Assembly (NCBI RefSeq): GCF_023516215.1 | Contig: NZ_CP097349.1 | Span: 1,550,001-1,614,000 of the forward strand | Source of the DNA: Cytobacillus pseudoceanisediminis | GTDB lineage: Bacteria > Bacillota > Bacilli > Bacillales > Cytobacillaceae | Direction: 5' to 3' | Length of the DNA stretch: 64,000 nt | Shown: positions 44,568-51,010 of the stretch, one piece after another | Position numbering within the stretch: position 1 is the first letter of the stretch | Layout: every line of letters begins with the position of its first letter | Notes under the pieces: model-generated | Databases searched by the model: none | What the model was told of the DNA's origin: nothing | The model's input: the letters and a program-made list of their open reading frames with translations, nothing else | Position numbers and translations under genes: made by a program

Positions 44568-44634
44568 AATTATCCACCTCAATTAAATTATAGCTTAGAA
44601 AGAGGATGAAATGATACTGAAATCAAGCTAAATT

Positions 44635-45659
44635 CGGACTCAGCGTGTATCTGATTACGATTTTGTGTCCGAACACCAGTCAATTTCGGACTCAACGACC
44701 AGCCGTTTGCGGTTTTGTGTCCGAACACCAGTCAACTTCGGACACTACGACCATCCCTTCGCGATTTTGAGTCCGAACACCAGTCAACTTCGGACTCAAC
44801 GACCAGCCGTTCGCGGTTTTGTGTCCGAACCCATGCCAACTTCGGACTCAGCGAGCATCCGTTCGTGATTTTGAGTCCGAACACCAGTCAACTTCGGACT
44901 CAACGACCATCCGTTCGCGGTTTTGAGTTCAAACACCAATCAACTTCGGACTCAAAGACCATCTGTTCGCGATTTTGAGTCCGAACACCAGTCAACTTCG
45001 GACACTACGACTATCCCTTCGCGGTTTTGAGTCCGAACCCATGCCAACTTCGGACACTACGACCATCCCTTCGCGATTTTGTGTCCGAACACCAGTCAAC
45101 TTCGGACACTACGACCTTCCGTTCGCGCTTTTGAGTCCGAACCCATGCCAACTTCGGACACTACGACCATCCCTTCGCGGTTTTGAGTCCGAACACCAGT
45201 CAACTTCGGACTCAACGACCATCCCTTCGCGATTTTGTGTCCGAACACCAGTCAACTTCGGACACTACGACTATCCCTTCGCGGTTTTGAGTCCGAACCC
45301 ATGCCAACTTCGGACACTACGACCATCCCTTCGCGATTTTGTGTCCGAACACCAGTCAATTTCGGACTCAACGACCAGCCGTTTGCGGTTTTGTGTCCGA
45401 ACACCAGTCAACTTCGGACACTACGACCATCCCTTCGCGATTTTGAGTCCAAACACCAGTCAACTTCGGACTCAACGACCATCCGTTTTGTGTCCGAACC
45501 CATGCCAACTTCGGACTCAGCGAGCATCCGTTCGCGATTTTGTGTCCGAACACCAGTCAACTTCGGACTCAACGACCATCCGTTCGCGGTTTTGAGTTCA
45601 AACACCAATCAACTTCGGACTCAAAGACCATCCGTTCGCGATTTTGAGTCCGAACCCGA
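44635..45659. repeat. Array of about twenty 52-bp tandem units with hairpins
   Basis: A 52-bp unit is repeated from 44635 to 45659, the first copy being divergent and one copy (near 45468-45512) shortened by about 7 bp. Each unit has TTCGGAC, a 27-bp segment with CATCC-TTCGCG-TTTTG, GTCCGAA, then an 11-bp loop (CACCAGTCAAC or CCCATGCCAAC). The 7-bp arms are nearly invariant, so every unit boundary can form a GTCCGAA/TTCGGAC hairpin. A six-unit block is present twice (about 44686-44996 and 45362-45659). Because 52 is not a multiple of 3, all frames are open for long distances; I see no coding signal. Confidence 0.9.
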
Positions 45660-50894: not shown

Positions 50895-51010
50895 GCAAAT
50901 GATGGCGGAAAACAAGCAAAGAAAACCCAAATCAGCAAATAAGCCATGCAATTTGCAAATAAGCCAGTCAATTCAGCAAAGAAAACTCTTAAACTGGCAA
51001 ATAGCCTTTT
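50895..51010 (+). repeat. Degenerate 20-bp tandem repeat between hutU and hutI
   Basis: GCAAA recurs at 50895, 50916, 50935, 50955, 50976 and 50997, about every 20 bp. The clearest units are GCAAATAAGCCA (50935 and 50955) and AGCAAAGAAAAC (50915 and 50975). Confidence 0.65.

Follow-up and report, generated by a model that had tools for sequence, protein, structure and literature searches.

The stretch of DNA analyzed here (the window, 64,000 nucleotides) corresponds to C1:1550001-1614000 of its genome, to which we refer as G000. It contains an array of tandem units that follow the layout TTCGGAC, 27 bp, GTCCGAA, 11 bp, with the starts of most later blocks spaced every 52 bp (Table 1). TRF described the array with a period of 52, 19.3 copies, and 85% matches (span 44658-45655), and together with direct reading this confirmed the ∼20 tandem 52-bp units with 7-bp inverted arms that had been proposed in the initial annotation. 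The alternating spacers of 27 and 11 bp were likewise recovered, with the exception of one unit that has a shortened interior. Variation had been thought to be confined to a small loop and the bases adjacent to the arms, but the 27-bp interior varies too, and the end of the array, previously placed at 45659, is corrected to the end of the last arm at 45654.

By direct reading, the left arm TTCGGAC is exact in all 20 units and the right arm GTCCGAA in 17, the three variants being GTTCAAA (twice) and GTCCAAA (once). In the whole window, 39 copies of TTCGGAC are present versus 4.6 expected, 37 of these inside the array, and none of 100 shuffles of the window attained this count. Our observations are consistent with the absence of a coding signal noted before.

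Table 1. Positions of the array, its blocks, and two genes (window coordinates unless a contig is given)
Feature	Position	Strand	Remarks
Left neighbour ORF, 358 aa	43506..44582	-	50 bp from the window array
Window array	44633..45654		20 units, 52 bp, one shorter by 7 bp
First arm-27-arm block	44633..44673		TTCGGAC at 44633, GTCCGAA at 44667
Short block	45465..45498		interior 20 bp, 7 bp below the others
Last block of the window array	45614..45654		last TTCGGAC at 45614, direct reading
P0001, NERD protein, 303 aa	G000:C1:4239736-4240644	-	outside the window, ∼2.6 Mb from the window array

Using the DNA of the left neighbour ORF to locate orthologous loci, we found an array in the assemblies G119, G143, G086, G017, G071, G116, and G128. 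Because the same locus, anchored by a neighbouring gene, carries an array in other assemblies, the array is not an assembly artefact, a concern that the initial annotation had raised. Arrays at this locus are common to several species of the genus and go down to two units in G105; the locus is free of an array in G050, G109, and G147. The loci L201 (G137) and L203 (G071), which hold orthologs of the left neighbour ORF, have inserts that resemble each other, are a few hundred bases long, and lie close to the 3' end of that gene; the other orthologs lack them.

Searched with Rfam at gathering thresholds, the array has no match; the only match in the window is a SAM riboswitch elsewhere (RF00162, 24686-24800, - strand, 93.8 bits). 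The window also holds a 22-bp tandem repeat of 2.4 copies at 651-703.

A dispersed family of arrays

In G000 (5.69 Mb), the pattern TTCGGAC-N15-35-GTCCGAA gives 114 matches versus 4 for the reversed control. We counted 25 array clusters in the fetched stretches, and the genome holds more than 20 arrays. The architecture is fixed across these loci; units are alike within a locus, and interiors differ between loci. Arrays with strict arms are unevenly placed and leave a gap from 1.90 to 3.02 Mb. Most arrays are intergenic: no long open frame touches 20 of the 23 scored in G000, one array sits inside such a frame, and two are overlapped by one, whereas in other genomes 151 of 167 are free and 16 have a frame running through or into the array. 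These counts come from a recheck that included ORFs overlapping arrays, which the first neighbour surveys had omitted.

Strict-arm searches miss arrays with changes at arm positions 3 and 4 and so give too low a count, and loci fetched by them favour TTCGGAC. The broader pattern TTYNGAC-N26-28-GTCNRAA-N10-12-TTYNGAC is found in 79 of 151 genomes of the family (15 of 25 genera), with a reversed control of at most one match per strand, and the counts are mostly either zero or tens to hundreds. At the level of the order, 30 of 249 genomes have a match, some of them single and chance-like; at the level of the phylum, matches are limited to 5 of 299 genomes, namely G000 and four with single matches. 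In the sampled genomes, the array family is patchy and limited to the order of the window. The search in relatives suggested by the initial annotation thus did return arrays in many genomes of the family, but the expected single array per genome, or fixed position, proved wrong, given the >20 arrays in G000 and the tens to hundreds of matches in many relatives.

At least 117 array stretches were collected; the matches listed include Cytobacillus, Mesobacillus, Neobacillus, Evansella, Aquibacillus, and Texcoconibacillus, among others. Array records labelled Chryseobacterium and Sphingomonadaceae are probably contamination. In G119, which belongs to the same species, many arrays among the matches listed have interiors identical or nearly identical to those of G000 at different copy numbers, and among the same matches the arrays lie on the + strand up to 2.24 Mb and mostly on the - strand past 2.5 Mb. 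Arrays common to several species at the window locus, and shared interiors at other copy numbers, show that the arrays are old, change their copy number, and evolve in concert. With regard to the terminal repeats and target duplication of a transposon or MITE, the ends vary between arrays, and the array-free orthologous loci are too diverged to show a clean empty site; we saw no empty site with clean ends.

Carriage by phages or plasmids is unsupported. The strict pattern had no match in viral contigs, BLAST of the window array against plasmids and phages gave none either (a weak query, as it is interior-specific), and a search of viral contigs with the neighbouring gene returned nothing informative.

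A NERD gene adjacent to the arrays

A first survey of array neighbours yielded an ABC ATPase as the largest group (7 loci) and a group of NERD proteins at 5 loci. In G183, which has a single array, this array adjoins a NERD-domain gene, and members of the NERD family also lie beside arrays at other loci, including loci in G000. P0001, the member in G000, has its own array in cis at C1:4239099-4239643, ∼95 bp from the gene.

P0001 is a NERD (nuclease-related) protein that has PD-(D/E)XK residues and a zinc ribbon and ends in helices. It matches the NERD model PF08378 with 66.6 bits (curated cut-off 22.1), whereas the PglW and MADS6 models remain below their cut-offs (19.2 of 990 and 32.2 of 460 bits, respectively). 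NCBIfam has no model above cut-off for P0001, and PADLOC returned weak matches only. PD-(D/E)XK nucleases are characterized by a catalytic Glu, an Asp, and a (D/E)xK motif. In the intact proteins, these positions are conserved as Glu-43 (70/70), Asp-75 (70/70), Asp/Glu-88 (68/70), and Lys-90 (70/70). A fold search with a predicted structure model placed CRISPR ancillary nucleases among the nearest matches and was uninformative on the C-terminal part.

Searches with P0001 identify NERD proteins as a multi-copy family in 142 of the 151 family genomes. The close P0001 subfamily, delimited at a threshold of E 1e-102 that was set after inspection of the match list and with G142 (one reverse-strand match) counted as array-negative, occurs in 58 of 78 array-positive and in 0 of 73 array-negative genomes; the AUC of this association is independent of the threshold. 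At the level of the order, it occurs in 8 of 10 array-positive genomes (one copy broken) and in 0 of 6 array-negative ones, the two exceptions being G177 and G331. Among the 20 array-positive family genomes that lack a close ortholog, 12 have at least 10 array matches; examples are G123 (153 matches), G094, G073, G062, G113, and G137. Partial close matches are present in G062 and G016, and the assembly of G136 is 66% complete. Several P0001 orthologs contain internal in-frame stops, indicating that arrays can outlive the gene.

The linkage is also positional. In the fetched flanks of the 30 best P0001 matches, array units lie 3' of the gene in 27 cases and 5' in none. In 20 of 20 paralogs at 48-54% identity, a 51-53-bp array follows the 3' end of the gene at a distance of 14-172 bp, and 19 of these 20 come from genomes without TTCNGAC arrays. 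Their arrays have different arms (for example GAAGGAC/GTCCTTC, TAAAGAC/GTCTTTA, and ATGGCGA/TCGCCAT). When loci were selected by protein, TRF detected a 50-54-bp array just 3' of the gene in 72 of 78, compared with 0 of 139 ORFs in position-chosen G000 stretches; the six remaining loci comprise two at contig edges, one broken gene, and three with units found by pattern. Conversely, L291 and L299 show no array by pattern and do so by TRF. Co-occurrence, adjacency, and parallel change of the arms leave little doubt that gene and array form a pair. Among distant pairs, divergence of the arm correlates weakly with that of the N-terminal part of the protein (0.23) and not with the zinc and C-terminal parts (∼0).

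Further members of this class, in which the period spans five helical turns, are located in G000 at 4891864 and 2912323, each with its own array. A trans array at G000 1361024-1361478 resembles, by eye, the array of the member at 4891864. With NERD co-occurrence, 3' adjacency, and the same period with other arms taken together, the window array is probably a dispersed trans array of a new gene-plus-array system.

In the window's genus (seven genomes) and in genus g4 (six genomes), the gene keeps the same surroundings. P0001 has closer relatives in two other families (G229, 73%; G166, 72%) than in genus g4 of its own family, where the best reach 58-65%, a pattern suggestive of horizontal transfer or old paralogy. 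In G259 (L235/L337), the close NERD ortholog is split by ∼1.3 kb of other DNA, and the array still follows 3' of the last piece.

Replication polarity and a proposed two-part system

The GC skew of G000 changes sign at two places, one within 1.63-1.76 Mb and the other within 4.06-4.17 Mb. In 21 of 23 G000 arrays, the interiors are purine-rich on the leading strand, and the mean leading-strand purine content is 0.75 in arrays versus 0.57 in their 80-bp flanks. The window array is one of the two arrays with opposite polarity and lies near the presumed terminus. In other genomes, the corresponding values are 0.63 for arrays and 0.52 for flanks, with leading-strand purine exceeding one half in 93 of the arrays and 71 of the flanks (116 each). 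Agreement with replication polarity was seen at 76 of 86 strongly skewed loci, with the weak ones (60 of 146) left out.

We also compared polarity with the flanking genes of 158 arrays for which both neighbours are available (16 divergent, 44 convergent, and 98 tandem gaps). Of the 114 arrays that could be scored, 97 have a polarity in agreement with replication: 5 of 6 with head-on neighbours, 39 of 43 with mixed ones, and 53 of 65 with co-directional ones. For NERD-adjacent arrays, polarity follows the local skew in 56 of 62 scorable cases whichever the direction of the gene (10 of 72 were not scorable), and outside the P0001 subfamily, where the arms are different, it does so in 29 of 32. 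The purine-rich strand follows the direction of replication rather than transcription. Because polarity follows the skew regardless of gene direction, insertion of gene and array together in a single simple step does not account for the pattern.

We propose, with a probability of roughly 55%, that the array supplies the DNA half of a system whose other half is the NERD protein and which propagates itself through binding, cutting, and repair. The protein would read the TGTCNRAA half-sites of each unit, and the 52-bp period (∼5 helical turns) would place all units on one face of the DNA, allowing cooperative assembly. The conserved nuclease site could then nick or cut array DNA in a fork-dependent manner. 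Repair of such breaks would add, remove, and homogenize units and might occasionally start an array in an intergenic region that had none. Gene, cis array, and scattered trans arrays would together constitute an element that propagates itself in the manner of RAYT/REP or homing systems, but with an unrelated protein. The odds that this RAYT/REP-like element is selfish, with its propagation inferred, appear to us about even. Against self-propagation, trans arrays stay at orthologous loci with similar interiors. Considering also the constant surroundings of the gene and the lack of a clean empty site, movement, if any, must be slow.

The long life of the orthologous loci is accommodated as well by a domesticated pair, in which NERD protein and arrays serve as polar chromosomal landmarks, for forks or chromosome organization, and are kept for the benefit of the host. 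Such a role would fit the conserved catalytic residues and the agreement with replication, which extends to arrays between head-on genes and to arrays with other arms. However, the system is patchy within a genus, several NERD systems with different arms coexist per genome, several orthologs carry in-frame stops, and strict-arm arrays leave more than a megabase of G000 uncovered. We therefore regard domestication as rather unlikely.

Still less probable is a function in defence, in which the arrays would hold the nuclease restrained until loss or degradation of the chromosome, for instance by a phage, sets it free, with arm diversity reflecting conflict. NERD domains do occur in defence proteins such as PglW (a weak similarity, below cut-off), the nearest structural matches include CRISPR ancillary nucleases, and there are many diverging NERD paralogs, but the NCBIfam and PADLOC results gave no firm assignment, and guarding does not predict replication polarity.

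Arms as probable half-sites and relation to known systems

Across the family, the arms follow the consensus TTYNGAC/GTCNRAA. The interior spacer is 27 bp in 624 of 673 cases and the linker 11 bp in 622 of 644, figures that are partly selected because many loci were picked by pattern. When flanked by two exact arms, the middle arm is exact in 963 of 1181 cases, and changes cluster at positions 3 and 4. The composition of the interior alternates between W and S about every 10 bp. In 190 arrays, complementary arms are kept in only 35 of 378 variant units and in 5 of 40 arrays whose majority arm is variant. Since fetching by exact arms biases this count, we repeated it on loci chosen otherwise and found complementary arms in 69 of 352 variant units and 6 of 31 loci. 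As variant arms are mostly non-complementary, a hairpin RNA is unlikely, and the simplest reading is that a protein likely recognizes TGTCNRAA half-sites in duplex DNA. We consider the predicted binding of the arms by protein to be quite probable, and a protein-binding array is the best supported of the three roles offered in the initial annotation. Possible look-alikes of arm or interior are the Spo0A box, resolvase arms, and the SpoIIIE SRS.

The idea of a structured RNA fares poorly. Transcribed arrays might act with the protein as hairpin or guide RNAs, given the inverted arms of each unit and the location of the cis array, which probably falls within the 3' UTR of the NERD gene. Using one interior (n = 138) and one linker (n = 139) per locus, we tested 18 position pairs; two of them, interior 3-25 (z 2.4) and linker 1-11 (z 3.3), paired above shuffles, but the other 16 were at, below, or within 1.4 sd above shuffles. 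Moreover, arms are non-complementary in 343 of 378 variant units (283 of 352 at loci not chosen by exact arm), the purine strand is the gene strand in only 13 of 72 cases, so that the orientation of array to gene is variable, and the array has no Rfam match. A role as RNA is thus very improbable.

RAYT/REP-BIME systems combine a Y1 tyrosine transposase with extragenic palindromes and show a replication-biased orientation, but despite the likeness of dispersed, tandem, extragenic inverted repeats, a REP/BIME-type array moved by an IS200/IS605 Y1 transposase has next to no chance here, as Y1_Tnp has 0 matches in G000, is absent from the array-rich G071, G086, G143, G145, and G003, and occurs in 127 of 151 genomes, many of them without arrays.

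The resemblance to RAYT/REP-BIME lies in a gene linked to its own repeat, dispersed intergenic copies that are tandem and inverted, patchy presence, and several systems per genome. The NERD protein, however, is not a Y1 enzyme, the period is helically phased (52 or ∼20 bp), variant arms are mostly non-complementary, and interiors differ between loci. By analogy, the system would work like RAYT/REP or homing elements without being a member of RAYT/REP. With CRISPR it shares the regular array and its position next to a gene that encodes a nuclease-like protein, whereas its interiors are alike within and between orthologous arrays, its conserved parts are 7-bp arms, and its many arrays are scattered; the earlier statement that the array is not a CRISPR fits this picture. 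Iterons and parS-like sites are phased arrays of binding sites, some of them beside the gene of the binder. The NERD arrays are similarly phased and partly adjacent to the gene of the presumed binder, but they are chromosomal, dispersed over more than 20 loci, and replication-polar, and their partner is nuclease-like.

In the parts of the open-access literature that we searched, including passages of PMC4666352, PMC10910872, and PMC12802215, neither these arrays nor a link of repeat arrays to NERD genes is described. A figure legend in PMC10910872, a study on CRISPR mining, lists NERD as one of the putative auxiliary genes of CRISPR. The likeness of NERD-linked arrays to CRISPR arrays may be the reason for this listing. 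Caution is warranted, as some CRISPR-looking arrays beside nuclease-like genes may belong to the NERD-array class. The arrays would give NERD, a common domain for which we found little on its molecular role, a specific partner in DNA. The natural protein-arm pairs form a large set from which a recognition code might be derived, and the arrays record the direction of replication while evolving in concert.

Distant NERD genes (24-30% identity) have repeats of ∼20-21 bp or multiples thereof within 600 bp in 20 of 27 cases at a score of at least 60, compared with 0 of 139 controls; at a score of 35, the ratio is 21 of 27 versus 3 of 139. With both this ∼20-bp class and the five-turn class located beside NERD genes, it seems that NERD genes of the sampled genomes are generally accompanied by arrays whose period equals two or five helical turns. 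In its widest form, a proposal to which we give even chances, all NERD proteins of these bacteria would be array partners, each clade with a specific phased tandem array (five turns with inverted arms at the 3' side, or two turns on either side) and dispersed trans copies whose polarity is set by replication. Gene and arrays would then represent a hitherto unrecognized class of gene-plus-array elements, whose proteins read an arm word as well as the direction of the fork.

A trans array of a 103-bp repeat with 5.9 copies at G000:C1:1371421-1372031 (L179) resembles, by eye, the array 5' of the distant NERD gene at 2638139. Within the window, between two ORFs that, judging from their translations, are presumably hut-like, six GCAA(A) words are spaced by 21, 19, 20, 21, and 21 bp (50895-51001). 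In this they are similar to the ∼20-bp repeats in the vicinity of the distant G000 NERD gene at C1:4512893, and they may belong to this second class as a trans array.
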